Part shown: piece after piece, positions 1 through 31,723 of the stretch
Layout: each line of letters opens with the position of its first letter
Numbering within the stretch: the first letter of the stretch is position 1
IMG/VR virus record: IMGVR_UViG_3300006922_000078
Span: 1-35,078 of that record
DNA: 35,078 nucleotides
Reading direction: 5' to 3' (one strand)
From: a virus
Made by a program: the position numbers and the translations under genes
Notes under the pieces: generated by a model
Databases searched by the model: none
Told to the model about the DNA's origin: nothing
What the model saw: the letters and a program-made list of their open reading frames with translations, nothing else

Positions 1-1
1 A

Positions 2-1630
2 GAAGAAGCAAATGAAGATTCTATAGACGCAATTTATAGTAACGATGGAAAAACAATTACGATATCAGATTACGAACCTCAAGGCATGGCAAACGCACAT
101 AAGAAATTTAACTTGAAAAAGCAGATACATAGAGGTGAAAATGGCAAATTAATAACTTCACCGTGGGGTGGATATAAAGTTTCATTTCATGGAGATGCAG
201 AAGATGTAAAAGCATATGCTAAAAACCATTTAGGTGAATCAGTAAACGAAGCAGGTGGTGAATTTGCACAACCAATATATGACTTAATTAATGATTTAGG
301 TGGTGATAATGATGCACATGAAATCGTATTAAACGATATGGTTCGTTACTTAGGCAGTGATACTATTAAAGATTTCGTAGCAGATTTTCGTAGAAACAAT
401 GACTTGGGCGAATCAATAGAAGAAGCACAAGTCCTAGCACATGGTGGCAAAGGACAGTATAAAGCAGTATCAGATGGTGGCGTTGTTCGTATTATGCATA
501 AAGGAAAAGAAATCGCAAGTGGTGACTTTGATAGTGGTGCAGATGGCTGGTTTGTAAGCCGTGAAGATGATAAAGGACAAAAGTTTTTTAGTGACGCACA
601 GGATATGGTAGATTTCTTCGTAGAGCAAAAAGTTGATGAACATGTACGAGATAGTTCAGAACAAGGCTTTGGTGGACAAGAGAGAAACTTTATACACGAC
701 TTGAGTATGATGTACGATGGTGTTAAAAGAGACCCAGCAGGATTAAAATATCTTGGAACATCTGAAATGTGGGATGAAGGCAATATCCTAAAAGATAAAG
801 GTAAATTAACTACTCTAATGCTTTGGGTTAAGAAAAACAAAGACGTTGTTGAAAAACGTTTTTCACGTATGTTTGGTACATATAGCAACAAAGATGAAAA
901 TGGAAAAGTAACAGCATCAGATGGTAATCAAATTCTTCTTAACATCATTAAGAAAATTGGCACAGTAAATGAAAACTGGAAAGATGTTACACCAGCAGGT
1001 TACGGACCAGATGATTACGATGATAAAGATGTTGCGCCTGAAGACCACGGCGGTGACTTGAAAAAGATGCAAGACACATATAAGCATAATGAAGATAGAA
1101 ACAATCATTCAGAAAACATTCTTATGTTAGCACAAGCATTCGGTGATAGAGGTGAGATTAAAGCAGTTGAAGGTCTTTTAAAGATAATCAAACGCCAAGG
1201 TTACACAACACCTGAACAATCAGAGATGATGTATAAAGCAATACATAAAAAATACTACAAGCAATTGTTTCCAGAAACAGAAACAGAAGGTAATGAATTT
1301 TCTGGTGCATTAGCAAAAGCAAAAATTGATGGCAAAAAGACATTTGACGTTGATGGAAAAACTTATAAAGTTAAAGAAGCACTAAGCAAACTACTAGATA
1401 GTCAGAAAACAAACGAAGCAGGCATCATGCATTATTCTAATGCAAAGGGAACACCTGAATACAAAGAAGGTCAAAAGGCTGCCAAGAATGGTGAGCCATA
1501 CGACAGCAATCCATACAGTGGCGCAGAGAAACTAAAATGGTCAAAAGGTCACAACGAATGGAGACATGCCAATAAAAGAAAAAAGAGTGAGCCCAATTTC
1601 GGTGCTAGAGGACAATTTGAAGGTAAATAA
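2..1630 (+). CDS. Large modular phage protein with RMF-like C-terminus (5' partial)
   Basis: The reading frame is open from base 2 with no stop before the first ATG at 86, so the gene very probably begins upstream of the window and 86 is an internal Met. From residue 1 at the ATG of 86, short segments are delimited by similar acidic motifs: LGESVNEAGG (49-58), LGESIEEAQV (107-116) and a related TNEAG near 440. Between them lie a small SPWGGYKVSF module, a GGVVRIMHKGKEIASGDFD module, and a long charged helical region. The last 60 residues contain YKEGQKAAKNGEPYDSNPY followed by W and GHNEW, resembling the ribosome modulation factor (RMF/CrpP-like) pattern of Gly-x-x-Ala, Pro-Tyr and Trp. I do not recognise the whole protein. 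A virion or injected internal protein is an inference from the motifs that resemble T4 capsid-targeting/gp21 cleavage sites. Confidence 0.8.
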   Translation, partial: EEANEDSIDAIYSNDGKTITISDYEPQGMANAHKKFNLKKQIHRGENGKLITSPWGGYKVSFHGDAEDVKAYAKNHLGESVNEAGGEFAQPIYDLINDLGGDNDAHEIVLNDMVRYLGSDTIKDFVADFRRNNDLGESIEEAQVLAHGGKGQYKAVSDGGVVRIMHKGKEIASGDFDSGADGWFVSREDDKGQKFFSDAQDMVDFFVEQKVDEHVRDSSEQGFGGQERNFIHDLSMMYDGVKRDPAGLKYLGTSEMWDEGNILKDKGKLTTLMLWVKKNKDVVEKRFSRMFGTYSNKDENGKVTASDGNQILLNIIKKIGTVNENWKDVTPAGYGPDDYDDKDVAPEDHGGDLKKMQDTYKHNEDRNNHSENILMLAQAFGDRGEIKAVEGLLKIIKRQGYTTPEQSEMMYKAIHKKYYKQLFPETETEGNEFSGALAKAKIDGKKTFDVDGKTYKVKEALSKLLDSQKTNEAGIMHYSNAKGTPEYKEGQKAAKNGEPYDSNPYSGAEKLKWSKGHNEWRHANKRKKSEPNFGARGQFEGK

Positions 1631-1632
1631 TA

Positions 1633-2499
1633 ATGAACTTATTTGAACTAACTCAATACAAAGTCGCACAATCAGAGATATTATCTGAGGGTGGTTCATT
1701 GCCAGGAGTTGGCGCAATTCATATTGATGAAATCAATCCAACACTTATTCCATTAGAGAAAGAACTTGGTATAGATTTAAGAAACAATGCATTGGGTAGT
1801 GTTGGCAAAAGAGAGTTCAGTGGCGATATAGATGTTGCACTAAAGATTGATGCAGACAAGATACCAGAATTTGTAGAACGTCTTAAAAAGAGTAAGCAGA
1901 TACATGATATTGCAAAGTCAAGTGTGATTATGACTAAGGTTAAAATCATGGACTTTGATGAGACTAAAGAAGATGGTAGACCAAGAACTGGATATGTTCA
2001 AATTGATTTTATGCCAGGTGACCCAGATTGGTTAAAGACATATTATCATTCACCACATGAAAAAGACAGCCAGTACAAAGGCGTATATCGTAACTTAATG
2101 ATTGCCTCAATTGCTGGTAATTTAGATATAGAAAACAGTGAACAAACAATTGAAGATGGCAGACCATTACAATCAAAAAGATTTATGTTTAGTCCGAGAG
2201 ATGGACTAGTAAGAGTTTTACGCAGACCAGTTCCAAAAGCATCTGGTGATGGATATACTAAAAAGAACAACAATAAGATTATTGCTGGACCATGGAAGAC
2301 AGCAGACGAAATTGCTAAGAACCTAGGTCTTGATAACGGCGAAGATTTATATAGTTATGAAACGTTGGTCAAAGCGATTAAAAAGAACTTATCTAATGAA
2401 GACCAGAAAAAGATATTTACTGCATTTGCAGATAACAATACTATAAAAAGTATGGGAATACCACCAGAACTTCAACAATATGACTCGGGCGAACTATAA
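1633..2499 (+). CDS. Nucleotidyltransferase-fold (pol beta-like) protein with capsid-targeting-like N-terminus
   Basis: 288 aa. The signature of the DNA polymerase beta/minimal nucleotidyltransferase superfamily is visible: GS at 55-56, then FSGDIDVAL (Asp65 and Asp67 as the DxD metal pair), and a third candidate acid in YVQIDFM (Asp125). These folds transfer NMPs to proteins, RNA or small molecules; the substrate here is unknown. The N-terminus MNLFELTQYK...ILSEGG resembles the short amphipathic capsid-targeting peptides of T4 internal head proteins, and LSE-G would fit the gp21 protease consensus (L/I-x-E). The start lies two bases after the upstream stop, and the downstream gene starts inside this stop (TAATG), so the three genes are translationally coupled. 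Fold assignment fairly good; role unknown. Confidence 0.8.
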   Translation: MNLFELTQYKVAQSEILSEGGSLPGVGAIHIDEINPTLIPLEKELGIDLRNNALGSVGKREFSGDIDVALKIDADKIPEFVERLKKSKQIHDIAKSSVIMTKVKIMDFDETKEDGRPRTGYVQIDFMPGDPDWLKTYYHSPHEKDSQYKGVYRNLMIASIAGNLDIENSEQTIEDGRPLQSKRFMFSPRDGLVRVLRRPVPKASGDGYTKKNNNKIIAGPWKTADEIAKNLGLDNGEDLYSYETLVKAIKKNLSNEDQKKIFTAFADNNTIKSMGIPPELQQYDSGEL

Positions 2500-4088
2500 T
2501 GAGATTAGACGAATTAGACAAACAAATTACTCCATCTGACCTAGAAGCGTTAGAAACATTTGCTGATAGAATATTTGGTAAAGTCGGTATTGATGTAGAA
2601 TTTACACGTCACTTCCTCGACAGAGTAAATGATGAACGTAATGGTAAACAAATCACAGCAAGTGAACTTACACGTTTATTCAAACAAGAATACAAACGTT
2701 GGGGTCAACCAATCGCACAGATGGGTCCAGACCAAGAAGCAGTAATGAAAGATTTAGTAACTGATATTAATATGCCATTTGCATTACGTTGGGATAGAGA
2801 AAACGAAGAACTTGATTTAATCGTAAAGACAGTAATGCGTAAACCAGATTTCAAAACATCTAATAAAGAATTTCCAGTAGAAAGTTCTGGCTCCGCTTCA
2901 TTAGACTCATATTATGAGATGATGCGTGCCAAAGAAATGGCTGAAGAAGACGGCCTAGACTCACGCAATCTATCATATGGGGTATTGATGGATTATATCA
3001 AAAAAGCGAGAATAGAACGTGCAAAGAAGAATGAGGGTAGAGGATTATACAGTATGAGTGGCAAGACAGGTTTACGTCATACTCCAACAATTAGGTCAAG
3101 AACATCATCTGCATCATTTCTACCAAAAGCAACTAAGAAACCTTCATTAATTAAAAGAATTTTTAGTGACGAGTTTAGTGAGCAAGAATTAGAAGAAGAT
3201 TCTCAAATCTGGAAGTGGAACAAAGAAGACCCTAATAATCCTGAAGTATTAATTCAAGGATACGGCAGACTTATGCTTAATCAAATAGAAGATAGTATAG
3301 TTGGCAAACTTAAAGAACTTACTAAGATGGCAGAACGAGGCGACTTTGAGCAGATACAAAAACTTTTAGATAGAGATGTCATGCAGTCAATGATGAAAGC
3401 AGTCGTTGATACGAAAGCAGAATTACAAGCAACTCGTAAAAGAGGTGGACCAAAATCTCGTGGTATTAATAAAGAATCGATTCTGGATGTAATTGGTAGA
3501 AGTGAAATAGAAGAATTTGAATTAAAAGAATTTACTCTTACAGATGTCAAAGACATGGTTAAAAAAGGTTGGATGGCTAGACCAAGTGAGAAACAATGGA
3601 AAGAACTTATAAAGATATACAATAAGTACAAAGGAAACGTAACTAGAAAAGATTTACTGGACTTGGGCATTGCAACTCTAGGTCGTAAAGAGTCAGTTAA
3701 AGAAAAAAAAGAAAAGACAGATGATGAGTTAAAAGCCTTTGACCCTAAAACTGCAAGAGCAATGATGATGTTGAAAGCAAAATATCCTCAAGCAGATAAT
3801 ATTCTTTCGGCTCTATTAGCAGATGTTGAGAATAATGAAAAAGATAGTGATGTTGCTGATTTGTCACACGAATTTAAAATGGAGGAATTAACAAAAGCAG
3901 TTGATATCTTACAAAAAGAAATCAATCTTTTGAAAAGAAAAAAAACTAACGAAACTGGTGGTGTAGGCAAAATCGTACCAGGTATTAACACTACTGTTGA
4001 TGTAGGTCCTGATGAGATTAAGAAACAAGCGGCCAAGTTTGGCAATGCAGTTGATAAAGACGGAGTTCCAAAGAAAAATTTACGATAA
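2499..4088 (+). CDS. Conserved marine-phage protein, charged, with C-terminal coiled coil
   Basis: 529 aa, ATG overlapping the previous stop by one base. The N-terminal 110 residues form a compact domain: FTRHFLDRVNDERNGKQI at about 36-53, then LRWDRENEELDLIVKTVMRK, a layout reminiscent of small RelE/BrnT-like toxin or nuclease folds (His, Arg, then beta strands). That is a weak analogy. The middle is a long Lys/Glu-rich helical region, and the end carries a Leu-rich coiled coil (MEELTKAVDILQKEINLLKR) followed by a DVGPDEIKKQAAKFGN tail that I associate with marine T4-like phage proteins. It again begins with a short M-R-L-x-E-L peptide like its neighbours. No catalytic residues can be assigned. 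It may be a virion-associated protein, by context only. Confidence 0.75.
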   Translation: MRLDELDKQITPSDLEALETFADRIFGKVGIDVEFTRHFLDRVNDERNGKQITASELTRLFKQEYKRWGQPIAQMGPDQEAVMKDLVTDINMPFALRWDRENEELDLIVKTVMRKPDFKTSNKEFPVESSGSASLDSYYEMMRAKEMAEEDGLDSRNLSYGVLMDYIKKARIERAKKNEGRGLYSMSGKTGLRHTPTIRSRTSSASFLPKATKKPSLIKRIFSDEFSEQELEEDSQIWKWNKEDPNNPEVLIQGYGRLMLNQIEDSIVGKLKELTKMAERGDFEQIQKLLDRDVMQSMMKAVVDTKAELQATRKRGGPKSRGINKESILDVIGRSEIEEFELKEFTLTDVKDMVKKGWMARPSEKQWKELIKIYNKYKGNVTRKDLLDLGIATLGRKESVKEKKEKTDDELKAFDPKTARAMMMLKAKYPQADNILSALLADVENNEKDSDVADLSHEFKMEELTKAVDILQKEINLLKRKKTNETGGVGKIVPGINTTVDVGPDEIKKQAAKFGNAVDKDGVPKKNLR

Positions 4089-4098
4089 AGGCATTCAA

Positions 4099-5340
4099 GT
4101 GTATAACAAAGACACAATGTGTTATAAAACTTGGAATGATATTATCATATCATTACCCAAGAAAACAGTTAGTTGGTGTTGTAAAACAGACTTAACTGCT
4201 CAACAAACAAAAGAAACTACATTTGATTTAGAAACTCTAAACACGAATGGTATAGATTTTCTTTTCAATCATCCAATTCTTCAAAAGAGAAAAAATGACT
4301 TAGCAACTGGCGTAAGATGTCCAGATTGCCATGTATGTTGGGAATCAGAAGATAGGTATGGACAAAGTCACAGAACATTATATACTAATCATTCTATTAA
4401 ATTTGATTATGAGACTCCTGCTACCTTTATCGAACTTGAACTGACAAACAAGTGTAATCTAGCCTGTGTATATTGTGGACCACAACTCAGTTCAAGATGG
4501 CAAAAAGAATTAAAGGAACGATATCCTGATACTGAAGATGAGATATTTCATAAAGTAATGGATTTACTGACCGAGTATTTCAATACTACATTAGCAGATG
4601 CTCCTACTATTAATTTAAGTCTATTAGGCGGTGAACCTTTCTTTACTGACCATATGTATGTATTCCTAGAATACCTTTCAAAATTCCATGTAAAGCCAGA
4701 GCAAGAAGTAACAGTTACAATTACAACTGGTATGGCTTTTCCTAAAAAGAAATTTACGAAATTTATTGAATTGATTGAACGTACTCCTAACATAATATAC
4801 ATTATGCAATTATCTGGAGAAGCAATTAACGAGAGAGCAGAACTAATTCGGTGGGGAATGGACTTTAAGACGTGGGACAATAACTTAGATATGTTCTTAA
4901 CAGAGTCAACAAGATTGAAGAATCTAGTTATAGGATTTGGTTGTGCCCATAATGCCTTATCTCTGCCGTATTTTAAAGACTATCTTGTCTATATAAACAA
5001 TAAGTTAGCAGAACATGACTATAAGCGAAAGGTATGGTTTCTAATCAACTATATAGAAGAACCACGACATTTATCTATATCAATGTTAAGTAGTCGCCAT
5101 GCTGATGCTGTGTCAGAACAGATAGAGTATATGGAGAATGAAATGACTAACCTTTATAAGAAAAATGAGTATATTACCATGTTAAAATCACTCAGAAATC
5201 AAATTTTAAATTCTAGGGTCAGTTCAGAGATGAAGAATCTTGCTTCAGAAGAGTTTAAAATGCTAGAAGATAGAAGAGAAATCTCATATAAGTCTGAATT
5301 TCCACATTTTGATGAACTCGTTTTAAAACAATTTAGATAA
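4099..5340 (+). CDS. Radical SAM protein (twitch-type)
   Basis: About 413 aa. ELTNKCNLACVYCG holds the CxxxCxxC cluster (Cys119, 123, 126 from the GTG) that binds the [4Fe-4S] of radical SAM enzymes, which cleave S-adenosylmethionine to start radical chemistry. LGGEPF supplies the GGE motif. An N-terminal CYKTW...VSWCC and a CPDCHVCW segment before the core look like auxiliary cysteine elements. The frame extends back to an ATG at 4012 inside the previous gene. I prefer GTG at 4099, which follows TAAAGG at 4086-4091 with 7-base spacing and removes the overlap; ATG 4117 is another option. The substrate is unknown. Phage-encoded MetK (12.7 kb) could feed it. Confidence 0.85.
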   Translation: MYNKDTMCYKTWNDIIISLPKKTVSWCCKTDLTAQQTKETTFDLETLNTNGIDFLFNHPILQKRKNDLATGVRCPDCHVCWESEDRYGQSHRTLYTNHSIKFDYETPATFIELELTNKCNLACVYCGPQLSSRWQKELKERYPDTEDEIFHKVMDLLTEYFNTTLADAPTINLSLLGGEPFFTDHMYVFLEYLSKFHVKPEQEVTVTITTGMAFPKKKFTKFIELIERTPNIIYIMQLSGEAINERAELIRWGMDFKTWDNNLDMFLTESTRLKNLVIGFGCAHNALSLPYFKDYLVYINNKLAEHDYKRKVWFLINYIEEPRHLSISMLSSRHADAVSEQIEYMENEMTNLYKKNEYITMLKSLRNQILNSRVSSEMKNLASEEFKMLEDRREISYKSEFPHFDELVLKQFR

Positions 5341-5343
5341 ATA
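5333..5343 (+). promoter_or_regulatory. T4-type late promoter
   Basis: TTAGATAAATA matches the late-promoter octamer (T4 TATAAATA; marine relatives NATAAATA). It overlaps the stop codon of the radical SAM gene. If the T4 spacing holds, transcription starts at about 5349, which is the first base of the next ATG. Confidence 0.6.
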
Positions 5344-5348
5344 CTATT

Positions 5349-5555
5349 ATGAAAATACATGAGATATTAGGTGAAATGACAAGTGCTGGTGGTATAGCCA
5401 CAGTGGCGGCACCTTTAGGTGGTGGTGACCCAAAACAGAGCATATATGCATCTAAAAAATCTAAGAAAAAAAAGAAAACTAAGATGGGATATAGTGCCGA
5501 AGTAGGCAACTTATCTTATAACCATCCAGTTAAAACACCAATGATTAAAAGGTAG
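5349..5555 (+). CDS. Small basic phage protein
   Basis: 68 aa: MKIHEILGEM, a Gly/Ala-rich TSAGGIATVAAPLGGG segment, then a run of lysines (KKSKKKKKTK). The TSGGIATV-type segment is familiar to me from small proteins of marine myoviruses, function unknown. The N-terminal peptide resembles those of neighbouring proteins and of T4 capsid-targeting sequences. No Shine-Dalgarno stands before ATG 5349, and the late promoter would place +1 on that ATG. An internal start at Met10, preceded by AGGTGA, is a possible alternative. The basic tail suggests nucleic acid or head-interior association; inference only. Confidence 0.65.
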   Translation: MKIHEILGEMTSAGGIATVAAPLGGGDPKQSIYASKKSKKKKKTKMGYSAEVGNLSYNHPVKTPMIKR

Positions 5556-5562
5556 AAGGCTT

Positions 5563-7527
5563 ATGAAACTGACACAACTTACAGAACAAAAAGAACGTCC
5601 TTACATTTGCGTTCATGCCAAAAAAGGCAAACATGAAACTCATGCAGTATCATCTTATGATGCGGCAAAGAATGCGGCTAAACATTGGGGAATGAAATCA
5701 ACAGCAGGTATTGATGCACATTTGGCAGAAGGTAATTATCCTGAACCACGTAAAATGGAAGTAACACAAGCAGACAAAGATAATAATACTGAAGCATGGA
5801 AACGTTTTAAAGCAGGTGACCCAAGATATGAATGGAAAGATATGATACTTTCTAAAGCAGAATCTTATGATGACTATCATGGTGATATGTCTAAAGAAGA
5901 ATATGACAAAACAGTAAAAGGTTCTCAAATGGAATATACTGTTTGGGTTGGTGGTACTGAAGTTAATGACAAGTGGCTAAATTACGAAGAAGCCAAAGAG
6001 TTATATGACTTATGGAGAGCCAAAGGCTACGATGATGTTCAATTAGATGCTCGTTTAAAAGAAGGTTCATTTTGGGGCAGAGATGATATGGTTGCTAAAA
6101 TGAAAAAAGATGAACTAGCGGCAGGAATGAGAAAGTACAGAAAACAAGACGGTGGTTCTTATTCTGGCACGACTACTTCTGACCCAGAAAAGTGGAAAGA
6201 ATTAGAAGCAGATGGCTATGAATGGGATAAAGATTATTATAACGACATAGAAGAATTAGAAGCAAAATGGAAAGCCAAAAATGAAGGTGCAAAGCCAGAC
6301 TTCTTAGACTTAGACAAAGATGGTGATAAAAAAGAGCCAATGAAAAAGGCAGCCAAAGATAAGAAAGCAGTCAAAGAAGGTCTAGATAACGATGACACAC
6401 GTAATATTGCTATTCGTTGTGTTGATGAAATGGTTAAAGAAGGCTTAATTGCTAATGATATGGACACAGACGGCGATACTGAATTTCAAATACAAGATAT
6501 TATTCATGACCAAATAAACAAAGCGTTGAATGTATCAGATAAATTTGAATCAGTAAAAGAAGCAGAAGTATCAGTTGACAACGAAGGCAATATAGCAGGC
6601 TACTTAAACACAATTGACGAGTATGCACATATGTTATATAAACTGGGATTAGATTTAGAAATTCAAAAATTAGAACCCGCAAGTAAGAATGCGATTGAAA
6701 TGGCTTACAGAATTCAAAATGCTGTTGATGATATTAGAACTAGAGAACTTAATGTCAAGCCAAGTTTAATTAGAACTAAATTTGAATCAGTGAACGAAGA
6801 TGAAGAAGCAATTGCGGCCAGAGATGAATTCTTAAAAGTTATGGATATGAAACCAAAGAGTAGTAATAAAGCAATTGATACGATTAAAAAGATTGTAGCA
6901 GACAAACAAAACATGCAAGTCAAATTTGACGATGGCAAGATGAAAGTAGATTTATACACAGCATCAGCAGTATCACAAGTATATGACGCAGTAAACGATG
7001 CTAACAAAGAAAAAATTGATAATATGCTAAGAACTAAAGAAGGCATGCTTAGAATGTCAAACTTTGCATTTAGCAAACTTAAAGAAGGTATTGCAGAAGG
7101 CAAACGTATTGATGAGATTTTACCAGCATTAGGACAAGCGGCAAAAGCAGTTGGCGGTGCATTAGCATCTAAAGGTGTTAAAGGTCAAATAGCCAGAGGT
7201 GCGGCAAAGGGTGCAGTAAATGGAATGATAAAAGATAAAAGTGGTAAAATGCATAAGGCCGATAGTCCACAAGGCAAGATGATTGCGAATATGGGCAAAA
7301 AAGTTGGTGGTGCAGGCACTACTCCAGCCCAAGTAGCACAAGCGAAAAAAGATTTAACGAAGAATAGAATAAAAACAGTTGGCACCAAAGTTAAGAATTT
7401 TGCCACGGGTGCTTTAGCAAAAGCGGCCGATAAATCTGGTTTCGGTAATCCTCTTGTGGCATCAAAACAACATGCGAATGATATGGTAGAACAGGCCATG
7501 AAAAAAGCACAAGAATTAGACAAATAA
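5563..7527 (+). CDS. Large modular phage protein with repeated ESV-E motifs and membrane-active-like C-terminus
   Basis: 654 aa. It starts MKLTQLTEQKERPYICVHAKKGKHE followed by an AKHWG...GIDAHLAE module known to me from marine phages. Other segments: a YTVWVGGTEVND module (~125-165), LDLDKDGDKKE (~250) and MDTDGDTEF (~305), both resembling EF-hand/dockerin-like acidic loops; KFESVKEAEV (~326-335) and KFESVNEDEE (~406-415), a near repeat also visible in DNA; and a Gly/Ala-rich C-terminus (about 520-654) with alternating small and basic residues that could be amphipathic. The design (short modules joined by E-rich linkers) parallels the gene at the left end of the window. Function unknown; a processed internal virion protein is my inference. 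Confidence 0.75.
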   Translation: MKLTQLTEQKERPYICVHAKKGKHETHAVSSYDAAKNAAKHWGMKSTAGIDAHLAEGNYPEPRKMEVTQADKDNNTEAWKRFKAGDPRYEWKDMILSKAESYDDYHGDMSKEEYDKTVKGSQMEYTVWVGGTEVNDKWLNYEEAKELYDLWRAKGYDDVQLDARLKEGSFWGRDDMVAKMKKDELAAGMRKYRKQDGGSYSGTTTSDPEKWKELEADGYEWDKDYYNDIEELEAKWKAKNEGAKPDFLDLDKDGDKKEPMKKAAKDKKAVKEGLDNDDTRNIAIRCVDEMVKEGLIANDMDTDGDTEFQIQDIIHDQINKALNVSDKFESVKEAEVSVDNEGNIAGYLNTIDEYAHMLYKLGLDLEIQKLEPASKNAIEMAYRIQNAVDDIRTRELNVKPSLIRTKFESVNEDEEAIAARDEFLKVMDMKPKSSNKAIDTIKKIVADKQNMQVKFDDGKMKVDLYTASAVSQVYDAVNDANKEKIDNMLRTKEGMLRMSNFAFSKLKEGIAEGKRIDEILPALGQAAKAVGGALASKGVKGQIARGAAKGAVNGMIKDKSGKMHKADSPQGKMIANMGKKVGGAGTTPAQVAQAKKDLTKNRIKTVGTKVKNFATGALAKAADKSGFGNPLVASKQHANDMVEQAMKKAQELDK

Positions 7528-7612: not shown

Positions 7613-7873
7613 ATGTCAATAGATGCAATTAACGAAGAAGAAAAAGCAAAACTCATTCAATTAGTGAATGAAGGTTGTCTGGTTCTACAAGAATGCGAAG
7701 ACCTCAAAGGTGGATTACGTGATACAGTAAGAGCAATTGCTGAAGAAATCGATGTAAAACCAGCGGTTTTAAACAAGGCAATCTCAGTTGCACACAAGGC
7801 GAAACTCGCTGAAACTCGCCAAGACTTTGAAGATATGGAAACTATCTTAGAAACTGTAGGACGCACTCTTTGA
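7613..7873 (+). CDS. dsbA: DsbA-like dsDNA-binding protein (late transcription)
   Basis: 86 aa. The all-helical pattern, with LKGGLRDTVRAIAEEIDVKPAVLNKAISVAHKAKL followed by an acidic ETRQDFEDMETILETV helix, resembles T4 DsbA (89 aa), which binds double-stranded DNA near late promoters. In T4-like phages such a protein is expected beside replication/transcription genes. A good Shine-Dalgarno (TAGGAGA) precedes the ATG. The stop (TGA) overlaps the TTG start of the DNA polymerase gene, so the two are coupled. Assignment rests on pattern memory and position, not on a diagnostic motif. Confidence 0.75.
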   Translation: MSIDAINEEEKAKLIQLVNEGCLVLQECEDLKGGLRDTVRAIAEEIDVKPAVLNKAISVAHKAKLAETRQDFEDMETILETVGRTL

Positions 7874-10677
7874 GTTATGTAGATGCCTTCTACAACAAAG
7901 ACAAAGATATTGTTCAAGTTGTAGAACGAATAAAAGGCAAAAGAGTCTACAATGATTACCCAGCGTGGCGGACTTTCTATGTGAAAGACCCACGCGGTGA
8001 CCATGTAAGTATTCATGGTGACAAAGTTCGTCAAATAAAATGTAAACGTCTTAAAGACCTCCATAAAGAACGAAAGATAAACGTAGGTAAAACATTTTAC
8101 GAAAGTGATATGAAGCCTGAAGTCAAGTGTTTGAGTGAGAACTATAACGGTATAGATTCACCAACACTTAATACTGCTTTCTTCGATATTGAGACCGACT
8201 TCGATGCAAGTCGAGGGTTTGCTGACCCTAGTGACCCATTCATGCCAATCACGGCAATCACAGTACATCTTCAATGGCTAGATTTACTTGTAACTCTTGC
8301 TATTCCACCAAAGTCAATGAGAAGTGGTGAAGGCCTCGAAGAAGCCCAACGTATTTGTGACCAGTTTGAGAATACTCAATTATATCTAAGTGAAGCAGAT
8401 ATGCTCAATGACTTCTTAGATGTGATTGAGGATGCTGATGTAATAACTGGATGGAACTCTGAAGGTTATGATATTCCTTATACTGTTAATAGAATAACTG
8501 AAGTGTTAAGTAAGTCGCATACACGCAAATTATGTTTATGGGACTTAGTACCTCAGAAACGTAAGATAGTAAAATATGGTAAAGAACAAGAAACGTTTGA
8601 TTTGTTCGGAAGAATTCATTTAGACTACTTAGAACTATATCGTAAGTATACTTACCATGAAATGCATTCCTATTCACTTGATACAATTGGTGAACACGAA
8701 GTAGGTGAACAAAAAGTTGCATATGACGGCACACTCGACCAGTTGTATAATAATGACTTCTACAAATTCGTAGCCTATAACAGACAAGACGTTGCACTAC
8801 TTGATAAGATTGATAAGAAACTAAGATTTATTGAACTAGCAAATGAGATTGCACATGATAATACAGTGAACATCAAAACAACAATGGGTGCTGTTGCTGT
8901 TACTGAACAAGCAATCATTAACGAAGCACACAGACGAGGCATGGTGGTTCCTGACAGAAAGAGACGTGACCGACAAGACGATGATGTTGATTTAAGTGAT
9001 GAAGAATTGCATGATTTAGAAATGCAGAAGGCCGCAGGTGCTTTCGTGGCAGTTCCTAAGAAAGGTTTACAGAAGTGGGTAGCAGGTATTGATATCAACT
9101 CTCTTTATCCATCAGTTATTCGTGCAATGAATATGTCGCCAGAAACTATTGCTGGACAACTAAGACCAGACTTTACAAATAAACTTATTGGCGATAGAAT
9201 ATCAGAGGGCAGAAAGACTGGTGCTAAAACATACGGTTCATCTCAAGCATGGGACGAAACGTTTAGTTCAGAAGAATTTCGTTTAGTTAATGAGAAAGAC
9301 AAAGCAAGTAGTATTACTTTAGTCTTAGAAGATTCCCCATGGGAAGATAACAAAACAACACAAGCACTTTCAGGTCAAGAAGCATACGATTTAATATACA
9401 ATAGTGAATTGAACTGGACTCTTACAGCCAATGGTACTATTTTCAAACAAGATGTTCAAGGTATCATTCCAAGTTTATTAGAACGTTGGTATGCAGAACG
9501 ACAAGTGATGCAACAGAACAAGAAAAAGGCAATTGAAGACGGTGATAAAGAAGAAATAGCATTCTGGGATAAACGACAACTTGTTAAGAAGATTAACTTG
9601 AACTCATTATATGGTGCGATTTTGAATCAAGGTTGTCGATTCTATGATAAACGTATTGGTCAGAGTACAACTCTAACAGGTCGTTGTATTACTCGACACA
9701 TGGGTGCTAAGACAAATGAAGTTATTGCAGGTGCATATGATTACAAAGGTCCAGCAGTTATCTACGGCGACACAGACTCCATTTACTATTCAATGTATCC
9801 TGTATACCAGCAAGAGATTGATGATGGAACTATTGAGTGGGATAAAGATAAAGTGTTATCTTTGTATGACGAGGTAGCGAATCAAGTTAATGAAAGTTTT
9901 CCAGATTTTATGAAAACATTCTTTAATGTTCCTAGAAAAGAAGGTGAGATTATTGTTGCTGGTCGTGAGAACTGTGCGACACAAGGTATCTTTATTAAGA
10001 AGAAACGATATGCAATGCTTATCTACGATGATGATGGTGAACGCCGTGATGTAGATGGTAAACCAGGAAAGATTAAAGCGATGGGTCTTGACCTTAAACG
10101 TTCTGATACTCCTGGTTATATGCAAAACTTTCTCAGTGAAGTGCTATTGAAAGTGTTGACTGATGGTACACGTGAAGACGTTATCGATATGGTCAAAGAG
10201 TTTAAGAAAGAGTTTAGAGCAAAACCTGGTTGGGAAAAAGGTTCTCAATCTCGTGTGAATAACTTGACTTCATATAAGAATCGTGTGAATGCCGCAAAGA
10301 AGGCAATGGCAAGAGATTTGAATAATGGCGGCGATAAATCTAAAAGAGATAAAGTACATCTTCCTGGACACGTATCAGCCGCACTAAACTGGAATATGTT
10401 GCGAGAACTTAATCAAGACCGATATGCAGTAGAAATTGTAGATGGTATGAAATGTATTATATGTAAACTAAAGCCAAATACATTTAAGTTGAAAAGTGTT
10501 GCATATCCTGTAGATGCTACAAAAATACCACAATGGTTCCAAGATTTGCCATTTGACCATGAGTTAATGGAACAGACTATTGTTGATAAGAAACTAGATA
10601 ACCTAATTGGAGTACTAAATTGGGATATGAGTGATGCAAATGCATCAGAAACCTTTGATAATCTATTCGATTTATAG
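7870..10677 (+). CDS. 43: Family B DNA polymerase (T4 gp43-like)
   Basis: 935 aa (T4 gp43 is 898). The 3'-5' exonuclease is intact: Exo I FFDIETDF (~104-111), Exo II GWNSEGYDIPY (~195-206), Exo III YNRQDVALLD. Polymerase motifs: A DINSLYPSVI (from 408), B KINLNSLYGA (~574-583), C YGDTDS (632-637), and the KKKRY basic motif. The start is TTG at 7870 with AGGA 8 bases upstream, overlapping the dsbA stop. The C-terminus, ETFDNLFDL, fits the clamp-binding tail of T4/RB69 polymerases, consistent with the gp45 gene immediately downstream. It replicates the phage genome. Confidence 0.98.
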   Translation: MSYVDAFYNKDKDIVQVVERIKGKRVYNDYPAWRTFYVKDPRGDHVSIHGDKVRQIKCKRLKDLHKERKINVGKTFYESDMKPEVKCLSENYNGIDSPTLNTAFFDIETDFDASRGFADPSDPFMPITAITVHLQWLDLLVTLAIPPKSMRSGEGLEEAQRICDQFENTQLYLSEADMLNDFLDVIEDADVITGWNSEGYDIPYTVNRITEVLSKSHTRKLCLWDLVPQKRKIVKYGKEQETFDLFGRIHLDYLELYRKYTYHEMHSYSLDTIGEHEVGEQKVAYDGTLDQLYNNDFYKFVAYNRQDVALLDKIDKKLRFIELANEIAHDNTVNIKTTMGAVAVTEQAIINEAHRRGMVVPDRKRRDRQDDDVDLSDEELHDLEMQKAAGAFVAVPKKGLQKWVAGIDINSLYPSVIRAMNMSPETIAGQLRPDFTNKLIGDRISEGRKTGAKTYGSSQAWDETFSSEEFRLVNEKDKASSITLVLEDSPWEDNKTTQALSGQEAYDLIYNSELNWTLTANGTIFKQDVQGIIPSLLERWYAERQVMQQNKKKAIEDGDKEEIAFWDKRQLVKKINLNSLYGAILNQGCRFYDKRIGQSTTLTGRCITRHMGAKTNEVIAGAYDYKGPAVIYGDTDSIYYSMYPVYQQEIDDGTIEWDKDKVLSLYDEVANQVNESFPDFMKTFFNVPRKEGEIIVAGRENCATQGIFIKKKRYAMLIYDDDGERRDVDGKPGKIKAMGLDLKRSDTPGYMQNFLSEVLLKVLTDGTREDVIDMVKEFKKEFRAKPGWEKGSQSRVNNLTSYKNRVNAAKKAMARDLNNGGDKSKRDKVHLPGHVSAALNWNMLRELNQDRYAVEIVDGMKCIICKLKPNTFKLKSVAYPVDATKIPQWFQDLPFDHELMEQTIVDKKLDNLIGVLNWDMSDANASETFDNLFDL

Positions 10678-12734: not shown

Positions 12735-13823
12735 ATGAATAACTATATTTTTACAAGCGAAAGTGTGAGCGATGGACATCCAGATAAAGTTTCTGACCAG
12801 ATTAGTGATAGAATGGTCGATGCTGGACTAAAAAATGGTGACGAAACTACAAGAATCGCAGTCGAAACACTTGTAACCACTAACCATGTAACGGTAGCGG
12901 GTGAAGTAAAGAACTTTAACGTTAGCAAGGACGATGTAGAAGAAATTATACGCTATACCGTTAAAGAAATTGGATATGAACAAGAAGGCTTTCATTGGGA
13001 CAAACTAAAGATTTACAATGAGATTCATTCACAGTCAGGTGATATCGCACTAGGAACCGATGATTTCGGCGCTGGAGACCAAGGATTAATGTTTGGTTAT
13101 GCGTGTAATGACAACGAAGCAATGCTACCAGCACCTATATATTACGCACACGAGATACTTAAAGACATCAAAGAAAAACGCAAAAGTGCTTATAGATATC
13201 TGTTACCAGATGCAAAATCACAAGTAAGTTTGGAATATGAAGGTGGTAAAGTAAAACGTGCTGACCAGATTGTTGTAAGTACGCAACACAAAGAGGGGTT
13301 TGAGGACATGCTTAAGGCTATGGTATCTGAAACTGCTAATACTGTAATGGGAGATTTGATTGATGAAAACACTACATGGCACATTAATCCTACAGGCAAG
13401 TTTGTCATTGGTGGTCCTGATGGTGACACAGGACTTACCGGGCGTAAGATTATCGTTGATACTTATGGTGGCTATGCTCCCCATGGTGGCGGTGCTTTTT
13501 CTGGAAAAGACCCCACAAAAGTCGACCGAAGTGCCGCCTATATGGCACGATGGTTAGCAAAGAATGTTGTAGCAGATAACATGGCAGATTGGTGCCAAAT
13601 TCAATTATCATATGCTATTGGCGTTAAAGAACCAACAAGTATCTATGTAGATTCAAACGGACACAATAGAACTATTCAAAAGTATATTGAAGAAAATATC
13701 GACCTAACACCAAAAGGAATTATTGATAGATTTGGTTTATTTAATTTTTATAAGTATAGTGAGAATTGTGTATACGGACATTTTGGTGATAAAGATGTTC
13801 CGTGGGAGAAAATAGGATGGTAA
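12735..13823 (+). CDS. metK: S-adenosylmethionine synthetase
   Basis: 362 aa (E. coli MetK 384). It makes SAM from methionine and ATP. Signatures are intact: FTSESVSDGHPDKVSDQISD (residues 6-25, ATP site), IHSQSGDIALG, GAGDQGLMFGYA (flexible-loop/hexapeptide signature), GGPDGDTGLTGRKII (~226-240), and GGGAFSGKDPTKVDRSAAY with the P-loop-like Lys residues. Shine-Dalgarno AAGGAT precedes the ATG. It has its own strong promoter. Within the window SAM would serve two radical SAM proteins and an FkbM methyltransferase. Alternatively it serves DNA methylation elsewhere in the genome. Confidence 0.97.
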   Translation: MNNYIFTSESVSDGHPDKVSDQISDRMVDAGLKNGDETTRIAVETLVTTNHVTVAGEVKNFNVSKDDVEEIIRYTVKEIGYEQEGFHWDKLKIYNEIHSQSGDIALGTDDFGAGDQGLMFGYACNDNEAMLPAPIYYAHEILKDIKEKRKSAYRYLLPDAKSQVSLEYEGGKVKRADQIVVSTQHKEGFEDMLKAMVSETANTVMGDLIDENTTWHINPTGKFVIGGPDGDTGLTGRKIIVDTYGGYAPHGGGAFSGKDPTKVDRSAAYMARWLAKNVVADNMADWCQIQLSYAIGVKEPTSIYVDSNGHNRTIQKYIEENIDLTPKGIIDRFGLFNFYKYSENCVYGHFGDKDVPWEKIGW

Positions 13824-19667: not shown

Positions 19668-19701
19668 AAAGAGGGATGTCTATTGACTTCCCTCTTTTTT
19701 T
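19668..19701 (+). terminator. Intrinsic terminator fused to a promoter
   Basis: AAAGAGGGA (19668-19676) pairs with TCCCTCTTT (19689-19697), a perfect 9-bp stem with a 12-base loop, followed by Ts to 19701. The loop contains the -35 of the ligase promoter. Confidence 0.85.
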
Positions 19702-19711
19702 ATGGTACAAT
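19683..19711 (+). promoter_or_regulatory. Sigma70-like promoter of the halogenase operon
   Basis: TTGACT (19683-19688), 17-base spacer, TACAAT (19706-19711). The expected start of transcription, 7 bases on, is the A of ATG 19718, so the mRNA may be leaderless. Confidence 0.75.
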
Positions 19712-19717
19712 AGTACT

Positions 19718-21106
19718 ATGATATTTGAAACTATAAAGCATTCCGCTCGTGAACACGGGTCTAAGACCGCACTTATTTGTAAAGATAAGCAATATACCTA
19801 TTCTGAACTCATAGAGAGTGTAGAGACACTGGCTGCCGTCTTATCAACTGCTATAAAACCAGGTGAAAAAATCTTGTTTGCAAGTGAAAAAGAATATCAT
19901 TATGTGAGAATGATACTTGCTTGTGATATCCTAGGAGTAACATTCATTCCAACTCATCCTAATTTACCAGAAGATTACTTATTTGATATTGTCGATGCTT
20001 GTAAACCCGACCATGTTATAATGAGTGAGCAAGATGCCTTAGAACTAAAACCACATAATAAAGGTCTAGTGTATGTCAAAGAAGACAATGCTACCTATAC
20101 TATTTTATTTACAAGTGGCACAAATGGTAGTCCATCTGCGGTCGTTCATTCAGCCGCTGGATGTATGCTAGGATGTCTACATAGTATTTCAATACACAAG
20201 TTAACATCTGATGATGTAATATTATCTCAACTTCCGCCATCAACGATTGCTGGCATGTACTTGTATACTTTGCCGGGATTAATAAAAGGTGCTACTGTAA
20301 TTATTGAATCGTTTGAACCGAGAAGGTATATAGAATTATGTAACAAATGGAAGCCTACTATCGGCACGATGGTACCAGCAATGTTACTTGCTTTGCAAAA
20401 AGTTCGTAAATGGAAAGATTATAGTATGTCCCATTATCGACAGTTGAGTATTGGCAGTACCGCAATCACTGACGAAGTGATAGACATATTATTTGATAAG
20501 GGAGTTCCACTTGTTAGGCATCTTTATGGATGCACAGAAACACATGTACCTGCACTCACCCATCTTATTGAACCCAATACTGAACACAAATTACAACTCT
20601 CAGTAACAGAATTTTATGAGCATAAATTAGATAGATTTGGTGTGTTGTGGTTGAAAGGTCCAACAATAACAAAACAATACTTAAATAGTGAAGAAATGAT
20701 TATTGATGATGAGGGATATTGGTGTACTGGTGATGTATTTGAGAGGGAACATAACGAGTTGGTATTTAAGACACGAGCAAAGGACTTGATTAAGGTGAAT
20801 AGTTTTAATGTGTCACCTGTAGCAGTAGAGACTGCCATCCTTGCATGTGAGGGCGTAGATGAAGTATGTGTAACATATAGAGAACGAGGTCTCGGAGAAA
20901 AAGAACTAGTAGCCGTTATAAGAAGTACTGATAAAAGAATGAATAAATACTACGTAACAGAGCAAATAAAGACAAAGTTAATGTATTATGAGTTGCCCAA
21001 AGATATCATTGTCGTGACAGATGAATTGCCACGAAATGCAATGGGAAAGATTAGAAGACACATCGTAAAAGACATTTTACGAAAAGGAGAGAAGAATGAA
21101 ATCTAA
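19718..21106 (+). CDS. AMP-forming acyl/aryl ligase (ANL superfamily)
   Basis: 462 aa from ATG 19718 (an ATG at 19676 lies inside the terminator and upstream of the promoter, so I reject it). It activates a carboxylic acid as acyl-AMP for transfer to CoA or a carrier protein. Core motifs in order: A3 TILFTSGTNGSPSAVVHS (~127-144), A5 YGCTET (270-275), A7 GYWCTGD (333-339), A8 TRAKDLIKVNSFNVSP, and A10 LPRNAMGKIRR with catalytic Lys444. It is shorter than the usual 500-550 aa but the motifs are complete. First gene of a four-gene operon; it overlaps the halogenase by 11 bases. The substrate acid is not evident. Confidence 0.93.
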   Translation: MIFETIKHSAREHGSKTALICKDKQYTYSELIESVETLAAVLSTAIKPGEKILFASEKEYHYVRMILACDILGVTFIPTHPNLPEDYLFDIVDACKPDHVIMSEQDALELKPHNKGLVYVKEDNATYTILFTSGTNGSPSAVVHSAAGCMLGCLHSISIHKLTSDDVILSQLPPSTIAGMYLYTLPGLIKGATVIIESFEPRRYIELCNKWKPTIGTMVPAMLLALQKVRKWKDYSMSHYRQLSIGSTAITDEVIDILFDKGVPLVRHLYGCTETHVPALTHLIEPNTEHKLQLSVTEFYEHKLDRFGVLWLKGPTITKQYLNSEEMIIDDEGYWCTGDVFEREHNELVFKTRAKDLIKVNSFNVSPVAVETAILACEGVDEVCVTYRERGLGEKELVAVIRSTDKRMNKYYVTEQIKTKLMYYELPKDIIVVTDELPRNAMGKIRRHIVKDILRKGEKNEI

Positions 21107-22841
21107 AATTAAAAGTATTGTTGTAGTTGGTGGCGGTGTAGGTGGCTGGTTCTCAGCGGCCTGGATGGCAGTCAAACATCCGAATATCAAAGTAACTATC
21201 ATTGAAAGTGATAAAATTCCACCTATTGGAGTAGGCGAAAGTACTTTGCCTCAACTGGGTACAATGATGAAAGAGATTGGATTAGAAGAGAGAGATTGGA
21301 TGACCCACACAAATTCTATTTACAAACTAGGTAATAAATTTGTTGGTTGGAACATAGAAGGCAAACGTGACCATAACACTAATCATTTTTGGTGTTCACG
21401 ATGGGACGAACAATATTATGGTTTCTCTTATGCACTACCTGAAAAGAATATTACATCAGGTCTATATCATCCATTAGAAAAGAAAGACCTATTTAGAAAT
21501 TCTAAAGGACAACCTGGTGTTGATGATAAGTGGAACGATTATTGGTTACAGTTATTACGTGATGGTCGTAAAAATCATTGGGAAATGGCACAAGATATGC
21601 AAGAGGCAACATACCTTATGGATTACAACAAGTCACCATATGATTGGAATGATAATCTATTAGTTGGTACTTGGCAAGGTGTTACATATCATGTTGATGC
21701 AAATAGATTTCCAGAAATAATCAGAGATAAGATTGCAATTCCTAAGGGTGTTAATCATCTACATGGTCATATCACTGATATTAATAAAGATGATGATGGT
21801 TATATTACTTCAATTGTTACCGAAGATGGTGAAGAAATCACAGGTGATTTGTTCCTTGACTGTACTGGATTCCATAGAGTATTGACAAAAACAATGGATA
21901 TAGAATGGATTCCGATGCCGGAGATAACAACCACAGACATAGTTGTTGCTCCAATAAAATATAAAGATGTCAAAAAAGAATTTCGTCCATACACTATGAG
22001 TAATGCGATGGATGAAGGATGGTTATTTGTTATTCCATTATACAATAGAATGGGTTCTGGATATGTGTTTGACAAGACAGAGATATCTGTTGAAGATGCA
22101 ATGAAGAAATATAAAAAGTATTGGGAAGGTCATGAATTTATTCAAGAGCCACAACATATGTCTTGGGAAGCAGGCAAATATAAAACTCAATGGAATAAAA
22201 ATGTCGTATCAATTGGTATGACAGGTTCGATGATTGAACCGATGGAAGCAAACATTCTTGGCATCGCTCAAGCAGGATTTCAATTATGTAGTTCATTGAT
22301 TGCTCGTGCAGAAGAAAATGATGAAGTCATTGGCAGAGGGTCACTCCATGCATACAACAAGAACATAGATTGGTTAGTTGAAACAATTAAAAGATTTATT
22401 TTATTTCATTATACATTAACAGACAGAGAAGATACTCCATTCTGGAAGAAAAAGAAACAACTTGGTATTGATGAAAATCATAAAGAGAAATGTTGGAGAG
22501 AATACAGAGTACCTGGAAATAATGCCGAATCAGGAGTTCCAGATTTTATGTGGGCGATGATGGCGGTTGCTATGGGTAAGTTTGATGATGATATTAAGTT
22601 GAATACAAAACCAGAACTAATGGAACAAGCGAATGAAAAGTTCTCTTGGCTTCGAACATCAGCAAAACGAAATGGAGTGAATGCACCTAATGCCTATGAA
22701 TGGCACAAGAAGGTACTCTTTAGTGATAAGTCACACGATGAAGTACTACAGGAAAACCTAGAAAAATATTCAAAGATTGTTAAAATTAAGGAAAAGGTAA
22801 AGTCGTCTTCCAGCGGAACAATTGCCTCACCTGGAAATTAA
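21096..22841 (+). CDS. Flavin-dependent (tryptophan-type) halogenase
   Basis: 581 aa. FAD-binding VVVGGGVGGWFSAAW (9-23) and GVGEST (45-50). Lys77 in SIYKLGNKFVGW aligns with the catalytic lysine of PrnA (Lys79), and MIEPMEANILG carries the glutamate of the PLESTG-like motif. The usual WxWxIP motif is present as GWLFVIPLYNRMGSGYVF, with W-L-F in place of W-x-W. Halogenases of this type chlorinate, brominate or iodinate aromatic substrates using FADH2; related genes are known in marine cyanophages (for example VirX1). Good AGGAGAG site; start inside the ligase gene. Halide and substrate cannot be read from sequence. A separate flavin reductase is not seen in the window. Confidence 0.95.
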   Translation: MKSKIKSIVVVGGGVGGWFSAAWMAVKHPNIKVTIIESDKIPPIGVGESTLPQLGTMMKEIGLEERDWMTHTNSIYKLGNKFVGWNIEGKRDHNTNHFWCSRWDEQYYGFSYALPEKNITSGLYHPLEKKDLFRNSKGQPGVDDKWNDYWLQLLRDGRKNHWEMAQDMQEATYLMDYNKSPYDWNDNLLVGTWQGVTYHVDANRFPEIIRDKIAIPKGVNHLHGHITDINKDDDGYITSIVTEDGEEITGDLFLDCTGFHRVLTKTMDIEWIPMPEITTTDIVVAPIKYKDVKKEFRPYTMSNAMDEGWLFVIPLYNRMGSGYVFDKTEISVEDAMKKYKKYWEGHEFIQEPQHMSWEAGKYKTQWNKNVVSIGMTGSMIEPMEANILGIAQAGFQLCSSLIARAEENDEVIGRGSLHAYNKNIDWLVETIKRFILFHYTLTDREDTPFWKKKKQLGIDENHKEKCWREYRVPGNNAESGVPDFMWAMMAVAMGKFDDDIKLNTKPELMEQANEKFSWLRTSAKRNGVNAPNAYEWHKKVLFSDKSHDEVLQENLEKYSKIVKIKEKVKSSSSGTIASPGN

Positions 22842-23452
22842 TGAACGTTTTAGAAACGTGGATAGGTGCTGATAATTTAGAATTCAAGTTAGTTGAATAT
22901 ACTCCTAGTATTCTGAATGATGTTCTAGCATTTTGTGAAGACTGTGCGGCAGAAGGTATCGATAACAACTCTAGTCTAAAAGCAATGAAGTTTGGCAAAT
23001 GGGGTGACTTAGAACAATGGCACATGGTGTATCATGGTGATAAAATCATTGCTATTAGCGGCTCGCATTACTATCCGCATTTTCACAAAGATTGTTATCG
23101 AATAATGTATAGAATGGCCACATTGAAAGCATATCGTGGAATGGCAAGTGCAAAGATATCTCTTAGAAAAATGCAACACAACTTTTGCTTTAGAGCAATT
23201 ATGCCAGCACAAGTAGACTGGGCAGTATCAAAAGGAGCAACTGAAATTATCGCAACTACCAATTCAGATGTCACCGAAGGTGAAACAATGAATAAAGTAC
23301 ACTCACATGGACGTAATCGTAGAGAAAATGGCAAGTCTGGATGGATGACATTAATTCATAAAGATGCATCTGTTTATAATACAAAGCAAGATATCTTCCG
23401 AGTAAATGTTAGAGATTTTGTATCACTTGAAAAGATTAAATTTAAAAAATGA
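22841..23452 (+). CDS. GNAT-like acyltransferase
   Basis: 203 aa, ATG overlapping the halogenase stop (TAATG). The central part YRIMYRMATLKAYRGMASAKISLRKM resembles the GNAT core strand and pyrophosphate loop (usual R/Q-x-x-G-x-G/A; here RGMASA), followed by AVSKGATEIIATTNSD and a variable C-terminus. GNATs transfer an acyl group from acyl-CoA to an amine. Lodged between halogenase and ketosynthase, it could join an activated acid to an amine-bearing partner. Family assignment is moderate; the substrate is unknown. Confidence 0.75.
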   Translation: MNVLETWIGADNLEFKLVEYTPSILNDVLAFCEDCAAEGIDNNSSLKAMKFGKWGDLEQWHMVYHGDKIIAISGSHYYPHFHKDCYRIMYRMATLKAYRGMASAKISLRKMQHNFCFRAIMPAQVDWAVSKGATEIIATTNSDVTEGETMNKVHSHGRNRRENGKSGWMTLIHKDASVYNTKQDIFRVNVRDFVSLEKIKFKK

Positions 23453-31411: not shown

Positions 31412-31723
31412 ATGATAAAAGAAACTACTATTCTTACTGGAACAGCGAATATGGCCATGGAATATGATTCAGTAGACCACTTCTTTACTGAAAATGGACT
31501 TGCTGATTGGAGAGCGGCTGAACTAAAGTTGTTTACAGATGCTGGCTTTGATGTCAATGACCCTGCTAAACAGCAATGTCAACTAAGTGAAGATAAAACA
31601 AAAGTAATCATTACAGTTGCTTATGAAGACCAAGCAGAGAAAGATGCTATTATGGCTAATGCTTCTACTGGAGATGCTCCAGCAAGCCTTCATCACGAAT
31701 TAAGTGAAACTCACTTATTCTAA
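31412..31723 (+). CDS. Small acidic hypothetical protein
   Basis: 103 aa: N-terminal KETTILTGTANMAMEYDSVDHFFTENGLADWRAAEL, then a beta-rich KTKVIITVAYEDQAEKDAIM and a tail with HHELSETHLF. Under a late promoter, so possibly structural. It converges with the minus-strand operon and the two reading frames overlap by 9 bases, with no terminator between. Family not recognised. Confidence 0.65.
   Translation: MIKETTILTGTANMAMEYDSVDHFFTENGLADWRAAELKLFTDAGFDVNDPAKQQCQLSEDKTKVIITVAYEDQAEKDAIMANASTGDAPASLHHELSETHLF

Follow-up and report, generated by a model that had tools for sequence, protein, structure and literature searches.

Tagged, modular proteins encoded before the DNA polymerase gene of a marine T4-like phage as candidate head cargo

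What are the proteins encoded by a row of genes that stands directly before the polymerase gene of a T4-like marine myophage, and do they travel in the phage head? The stretch in question is a virus fragment of 35,078 bases (IMG/VR record IMGVR_UViG_3300006922_000078; hereafter the window), in which the family-B DNA polymerase gene (7870-10677) is preceded by p1, p2, p3, a radical S-adenosylmethionine (SAM) gene, p5 and p6. Among named phages the polymerase is closest to those of Sinorhizobium phage Phosso and Agrobacterium phage Atu_ph07 (~47% identity), and most p3 and p6 modules have no match there; PHROGs and Pfam searches assigned no function to p1, p2, p3, p5 or p6. A first-pass annotation of the sequence had proposed that these genes encode polyproteins that are targeted to the capsid, cut into modules inside the head and injected with the DNA. 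Our analysis supports this proposal in part and makes it likely that the genes encode phage-head cargo, whose tag and junctions would be cut by the prohead protease gp21 and whose modules would be injected. The row is organized as follows (aa, amino acids; | marks a candidate cut).

2-1630, + strand: p1, the C-terminal 542 aa of an 892-aa modular protein, its 5' end lying beyond the window
1633-2499, + strand: p2, 288 aa, N-terminus MNLFELTQYK, with a pol-beta-nucleotidyltransferase-like motif (LGSVGKREFSGDIDVAL)
2499-4088, + strand: p3, 529 aa, tag MRLDEL, with a conserved N-domain of ~120 aa (phrog_23027)
4117-5340, + strand: radical-SAM protein, start placed at MCYKTW from homologues, no tag
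5349-5555, + strand: p5, a 68-aa basic protein, tag MKIHEILGE|
5563-7527, + strand: p6, a 654-aa modular protein, tag MKLTQLTE|

An N-terminal tag shared by genes before the polymerase

In T4, the internal proteins IPI, IPII and IPIII, together with Alt, are described as carrying a capsid targeting sequence that gp21 cuts after L/I-x-E (PMC9026906, PMC9958956). The four N-termini that had suggested a similar arrangement in the window are all present (MNLFELTQYK at 1633, MRLDELDKQI at 2499, MKIHEILGEM at 5349 and MKLTQLTEQK at 5563). Taking M[KR][ILV]x[EDQ][ILV] as a strict tag pattern, we found it in three of the six open reading frames (ORFs) of positions 1-7527, as against none of the 39 elsewhere in the window (Fisher p=0.0014). 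Clustering was also seen in G009, a relative of 221,643 bases: the 25 kb leading up to gp43 hold 31 ORFs, 11 of them with the strict tag, as against 2 of 256 elsewhere (p=2.6e-10), and the tagged proteins are mutually unrelated behind the tag. Enzymes stand behind a tag and [LI]xE in relatives, among them NT5C nucleotidases, a CCA/poly(A) polymerase, a zeta-toxin-like kinase and cytidylyltransferases, part of these enzyme-bearing ORFs matching only a looser form of the tag.

The start of p1 was supplied by contig L001, which is identical to window p1 at 514 of 514 aa in the overlap. There, the full 892-aa protein opens with the tag MNLSELLE|DGGKDLVIIYPGRFHPFHIGH (MNLSELLE|DGG), followed by an NMNAT/cytidylyltransferase-like domain and then by modules; the full-length p1 homologues L080 and L182 match Pfam CTP_transf_like. 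The predicted propeptide ends in L/I-x-E in p1 (LLE, from L001), p2 (LSE), p5 (LGE) and p6 (LTE), and this ending is kept in relatives. Homologues of p5 begin MKIYEVIGE|, MKINEIISE|, MKINELLGE| or MKVFDIINE|, and those of p6 have LIE or MIE in place of LTE, the ending being xE with L, I or M at P3 throughout (LGE, IGE, ISE and INE in p5; LTE, LIE and MIE in p6). No clean (L/I)xE lies right behind the tag of p3 (2499-4088), and in Sinorhizobium phage phiN3 the p3 N-domain is found inside a large untagged protein.

The proposed row of neighbouring tagged genes is thus borne out as a cluster, with the corrections that its first gene starts outside the window and that the untagged radical-SAM gene (4117-5340) sits within it; on this evidence, we would place the latter outside the cargo set. 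Radical-SAM genes also occur among tagged genes in G009 (192786-194976 and 208409-209569) and G011 (49541-51914), as at 4117-5340 in the window, and a short tagged peptide of the p5 kind is often their neighbour; they might conceivably serve to modify peptides.

Cyanophage virion proteomics offers an outside check. S-CREM2 virions were analysed by mass spectrometry, and six non-structural virion proteins are listed by the authors, two of them endolysins (PMC10665884). The other four, a SAM hydrolase (MKDFDSFLEE), a kinase (MKRFDAFLTE), a cytidylyltransferase (MKNFSSFLTE) and a Cas9-like nuclease (RFASFMAE, at residue 25), all have an F[LM]xE N-terminus. Across this phage, five of the 26 non-structural or unknown virion proteins had F[LIMF]xE at residues 7-14, compared with one of 167 proteins that went undetected and none of 26 structural ones (p=1.7e-4); the F[LM]xE pattern was tightened after the S-CREM2 proteins were seen, and its looser form gives only p=0.018. 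The pattern was then fixed and tried on 12 further proteins, nine of which fit; two of the three misfits are short annotated forms without an N-terminal extension. The Syn1 and CBB cytidylyltransferases, as annotated, lack such an extension and fail the tag test. The S-SZBM1 cytidylyltransferase that was detected in virions fits as well (MRFRQFIIE|A), and related cytidylyltransferases are reported as virion proteins in both S-CREM2 and S-SZBM1 (PMC10665884, PMC9146016). In the open-access literature, subscription journals being outside the search, we found no paper that ties the tag to cyanophage virion enzymes.

Capsid targeting is therefore well supported by comparison (tag clustering, enzymes behind the tag and the S-CREM2 match), the proposal falling short at MRLDELDKQI, which has no site. 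Together with the T4 precedent, this comparative evidence argues strongly for targeting and tag removal.

Module junctions and the prohead protease

Are these proteins also cut internally? The internal peptides on which this idea was based are all present, LGESVNE|AGG and LGESIEE|AQV in ORF 2-1630, and KFESVKE|AEV, KFESVNE|DEE and SKLKEGIAE|G in 5563-7527. The motif ES[VI]xE occurs five times in the 2,053 aa of the interval (mean 0.08, maximum 2, in 2,000 shuffles) and is absent from the other 9,151 aa of the window. Bare [LIV]xE is not enriched (33 against 28.5 shuffled), so that the triplet is uninformative without position or context, and its count was dropped as evidence. The candidate sites and module starts are listed below.

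230-250, + strand: junction LGESVNE|AGGEFAQPIYDL in p1; its downstream module follows other sites in p6 of G006 (VSE|AVG) and elsewhere
404-424, + strand: junction LGESIEE|AQVL in p1; shared matches stop exactly there (aa 113 of ORF 86-1630)
1672-1689, + strand: SEILSE|GG, predicted cleavage site in p2
3684-3704, + strand: inner ESVKE of p3
3942-3953, + strand: C-terminal GINTTVDV module of p3, after KTNE
6364-6378, + strand: module start KAVKE|GLDNDDTRN in p6; the same module stands behind ESIKE| in p1 of G006
6541-6561, + strand: junction KFESVKE|AEVS in p6
6778-6798, + strand: junction KFESVNE|DEEAIAARDEFLKVMDM in p6; [LIVMF]xE lies upstream in 10 of 14 distinct contexts of the downstream module
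7075-7098, + strand: KLKEGIAE|G, a weak candidate; a related module in a Melnitz protein stops just short of it

Among close relatives, p1, p3 and p6 vary by gain, loss and exchange of modules. The length of p6 in four phages is 587, 654, 773 and 1,287 aa; modules of window p1 occur in p6 of G006, and vice versa; and the p3 N-domain and p2, which are separate genes in the window, form opposite ends of a single 1,075-aa ORF in G009. The relation between module edges and candidate sites was measured in 190 related proteins, using sharp edges of high-identity matches and control motifs; this test replaced a first scan of every BLAST end in all proteins, which had given a weak and noisy signal. 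Of 314 module starts, 127 had [LIV]xE no more than four residues away (random 41.4 +/- 5.9, maximum 60 in 500); of 364 module ends, 60 had the E of [LIV]xE as their final shared residue, the edge falling one residue later in only seven. Other proteins of the same contigs stayed at the random level (3/25 and 4/44). [LIV]xE was the most enriched of 98 P3-x-P1 classes (86 against 11.7 expected), and at C-boundaries LIV-x-E was enriched 7.3-fold, as against only 1.4-fold for A/G/S/T-x-E. The junction consensus reads (E)-S-(V/I/L)-x-E | (A/S/G), with a preference for A, S or G at P1'. Counted by module, sites were found for GVNTTVDV in 22/25, p2 in 9/9, YQGR in 7/7, GKSPHKK in 8/9 and DEFLKVMDM in 10/14.

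The p2 site is instructive, having E at P1 and L or I at P3 in 21 of 21 homologues, with any of seven residues at P2 (for several homologues the alignment begins only at about P4, the start of their tblastn match). It is kept in two gene contexts, the tagged stand-alone gene of the window and the fusions of G009 and G011, in which other modules precede p2, and the sequence upstream of it is unrelated among homologues. A fixed P1, a restricted P3, a free P2 and unrelated upstream sequence thus point to a protease-site signature rather than a copied linker. Conservation extends along the entire p2 protein (mean column identity 72%), and G55, S56, D65 and D67 of its motif LGSVGK...SGDIDVAL are invariant, this motif being the one basis on which p2 is read as a putative pol-beta-like nucleotidyltransferase.

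Head genes are absent from the 35-kb fragment. An S77 prohead protease is, however, encoded in the relatives G009, G016 and Melnitz. G016 is a close relative (polymerase 92% identical) that carries gp20-gp23; a search with gp21 of G016 matched PDB 5jbl, the structure of the T4 prohead protease, across the S77 catalytic regions (2.4e-15). Comparison with gp21 substrates in relatives, a check suggested by the first-pass annotation, yielded matching candidate sites in G016 gp21 (IITE|S), gp22 (VLSE|E and TLSE|A, the latter LSE|A) and gp23 (YLSE|S), so that T4's L/I-x-E rule appears to hold in the lineage. Being fragments, most of the contigs nearest to the window gave no match in searches for gp23 and S77. 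The internal linkers thus emerge as module junctions with a protease-site signature, from which cutting at these positions may be inferred; SKLKEGIAEG proved to be merely a domain edge, and the commonest P3 is V, not the L/I of T4.

In G009 (199154-199648; L069:19154), S-SM2 (L198:11471-11899) and S-SZBM1 (L215:6940-7311) we observed small proteins in which an xE site is directly followed by a copy of the opening residues of mature gp23, that of G009 ranking 1 of 717 post-[LI]xE 22-mers; they are possibly gp23-arm mimics. Copying of the mature gp23 N-arm by p5 is strong in G009 only and not in window p5, and we do not claim it for the window.

A probable scheme of cut cargo, and its alternatives

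In the scheme that we favour, an N-terminal tag of ~8-10 residues (M-K/R-I/L-x-E/Q-I/L-x-x-E) would dock precursors into the prohead core, and the S77 prohead protease (gp21) would strip it after (L/I/V)-x-E. The same protease would also cut the long proteins at ES(V/I)xE|(A/S/G), turning few precursors into many small modules, which would remain with the DNA and reach the host at infection. The tag, its clustering, the shuffling of modules, the junction signature and the protease in relatives are all read from sequence; packaging of the window proteins is extrapolated from them.

Several observations weigh against this scheme. The virion mass spectrometry comes from other phages (S-CREM2 and S-SZBM1), and several G009 tags have no clean site behind them (IITKE, IVTKK). 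P3 at the junctions is mostly V, unlike T4's L/I, and some junctions misfit, including GNEFS (4/9), HYSDAKG (0/2) and window p3 KTNE|TGG, with T at P3. A mild codon bias at junctions (GTA in 37 of 56 Val codons; GAA) leaves some room for shared DNA ancestry. As for the payload, the AlphaFold model of p2 is poor (mean predicted local distance difference test, pLDDT, 68), its best Foldseek match in PDB has E 0.14 and it has no Pfam or profile match; the p3 N-domain (pLDDT 58.7) yields no usable fold. A Pfam scan of p3 N-domain members found nothing credible; the idea of a BrnT/RelE-like RNase, to which Pfam lends no support, stays speculation.

Could the proteins be packaged with the tag alone removed, ES(V/I)xE forming uncut flexible linkers in intact multi-domain 'polyvalent' effectors that are injected whole? 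In T4 Alt, cuts fall only near the ends, the virion RNA polymerase of phage N4 is packaged as a large multidomain chain, and mass spectrometry detected S-SZBM1_139, a virion protein of 457 aa that contains several [LIV]xE triplets, the accessible text of the source not stating whether it is cut. The fixed P1, restricted P3 and free P2 nevertheless match the need of a protease and not of a linker, as does the P1' preference, making this alternative unlikely. It is more doubtful still that these are core or scaffold proteins like T4 gp22, gp67 and gp68, chopped up and mostly leaving the head without a cargo role. Their low-complexity, charged composition would suit such a role, and the RLKELSGI stretch of relatives resembles the C-terminus of G016 gp22 (EIINLKKLAGIN); against it stand the conserved enzyme domains behind the tag, the full-length conservation of p2 and the persistence of cytidylyltransferases in mature cyanophage virions.

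The linkers might also be DNA-level recombination points, with the motif a by-product and nothing packaged, a notion to which the mild bias towards GTA and GAA codons at the junctions lends something. However, Ser of ES[VI]xE is encoded by both the TCN and AGY families, which speaks against a linker that was simply copied as DNA; P1 and P3 are conserved, whereas P2 is free to vary; the same triplet stands behind the N-terminal tag, where recombination is unneeded; and cyanophage virion mass spectrometry agrees with the tag. We accordingly regard this notion as highly improbable. Hardly credible at all is a chance or compositional artefact of Glu-rich proteins, which would fit the unenriched bare [LIV]xE counts but is refuted for the tag and ES[VI]xE by tests of position, context and conservation, all far from random.

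A second N-terminal or linker motif, R(L/M)xKL(S/A)GI(I/K)xE, was noted in G016 (56806-65277), G009 (187030) and Flavobacterium phage immuto (L196:4209). It resembles the C-terminus of the G016 scaffold gp22 given above, and is perhaps a second core-docking tag.

Known systems, implications and other features of the window

Taken singly, a short N-terminal capsid-targeting tag, gp21-type cutting, cyanophage virion enzymes and injected multidomain proteins are already known. The logic of tag and protease is that of T4; the modular polyprotein form with protease-type junctions appears to be new. Like T4 internal head proteins, those described here belong to a T4-type phage, have a predicted N-terminal propeptide of ~10 residues ending in L/I-x-E and place diverse unrelated proteins behind one tag, an S77 protease being encoded in relatives. 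They differ from them in tag letters (MK-I/L-x-E-I/L), in their long multi-module precursors with repeated internal sites and V tolerated at P3, and in a payload of nucleotide- and nicotinamide adenine dinucleotide (NAD)-directed enzymes in place of IPs or an ADP-ribosyltransferase. The virion enzymes of cyanophages S-CREM2, S-SZBM1 and S-CRM01 include the cytidylyltransferase (NMNAT-like) family found at the head of p1 and, in the sequences examined, carry an N-terminal F-(L/I/M)-x-E tag, but are single-domain or few-domain; in the accessible text of the two reports, no targeting signal is proposed and contamination is not ruled out (PMC10665884, PMC9146016).

The polyvalent proteins of phages and plasmids likewise join several unrelated domains, including pol-beta nucleotidyltransferases, in one presumably injected chain for which proteolytic processing is expected (Iyer et al. 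2017, PMC5512222), and chains of this type occur here as the NMNAT-like domain with its modules and as the p3 N-domain with p2 in the 1,075-aa G009 ORF. Their processing is attributed mainly to zincin metallopeptidase domains of the same chain (PMC5512222), whereas here the sites match the prohead protease, a protein distinct from the chain, and the N-terminus carries a head tag; a Pfam scan of p1-p6 and of tagged relatives found no hub domain of the zincin metallopeptidase, ArdC-N or a similar type. As the heads of phiKZ and SPN3US mature, a gp21 relative cleaves many inner-body and ejection proteins on the C-terminal side of Glu, but at A/S-x-E and not L/I/V-x-E, and the accessible text of these sources does not report module exchange at the sites (PMC10052503, PMC9026906). 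Nor did our open-access search, which left subscription journals aside, find module exchange at prohead-protease sites described.

The nameable modules are an NMNAT-like cytidylyltransferase and a pol-beta-like nucleotidyltransferase in the window and, in relatives, an NT5C nucleotidase, a CCA/poly(A) polymerase and a zeta-toxin-like kinase. They suggest early control of NAD and nucleotides together with counter-defence, injection and function of the pieces being deduced. The virus probably carries ready-made enzymes in its head for the moment of infection. There is perhaps an even chance that marine T4-like phages possess a swappable cargo system, in which a common tag loads the head, one protease yields changing small effectors and modules recombine exactly at protease sites, the injected arsenal evolving like a cassette array that includes NAD- and nucleotide-directed enzymes acting before phage gene expression. 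Should the cargo reading prove right, head-borne proteins of marine T4-like phages now labelled 'hypothetical', and their cutting sites, could be recognized from sequence alone. The reading would also offer an explanation for the NMNAT-like enzymes, kinases and Cas9-like nuclease of cyanophage virions, which their authors, in the text accessible to us, could not separate from contamination, and the class of injected effectors that it would predict is large, with NAD, nucleotides, RNA and defence in ocean bacteria as the likely targets.

A similar set was observed beside the terminase of immuto, a Bacteroidetes phage (L196), comprising the p3 N-domain, NMNAT, NT5C, MKKLIRIVE| and ESVNE/ESLNE linkers, which means that the scheme may extend well beyond the marine T4-like phages of Proteobacteria and cyanobacteria. 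Elsewhere in the window, 12735-13823 encodes a complete S-adenosylmethionine synthetase (classed by PHROGs as of unknown function), where S-CREM2 instead has a virion-borne SAM hydrolase, and 31715-32323 (- strand) encodes an aspartyl/asparaginyl beta-hydroxylase-like protein. Finally, an AMP-binding (acyl/aryl-activating) enzyme, a tryptophan-halogenase family flavoprotein and a beta-ketoacyl synthase follow one another at 19676-24600, a run that looks like a small biosynthetic cluster and is odd for a phage.

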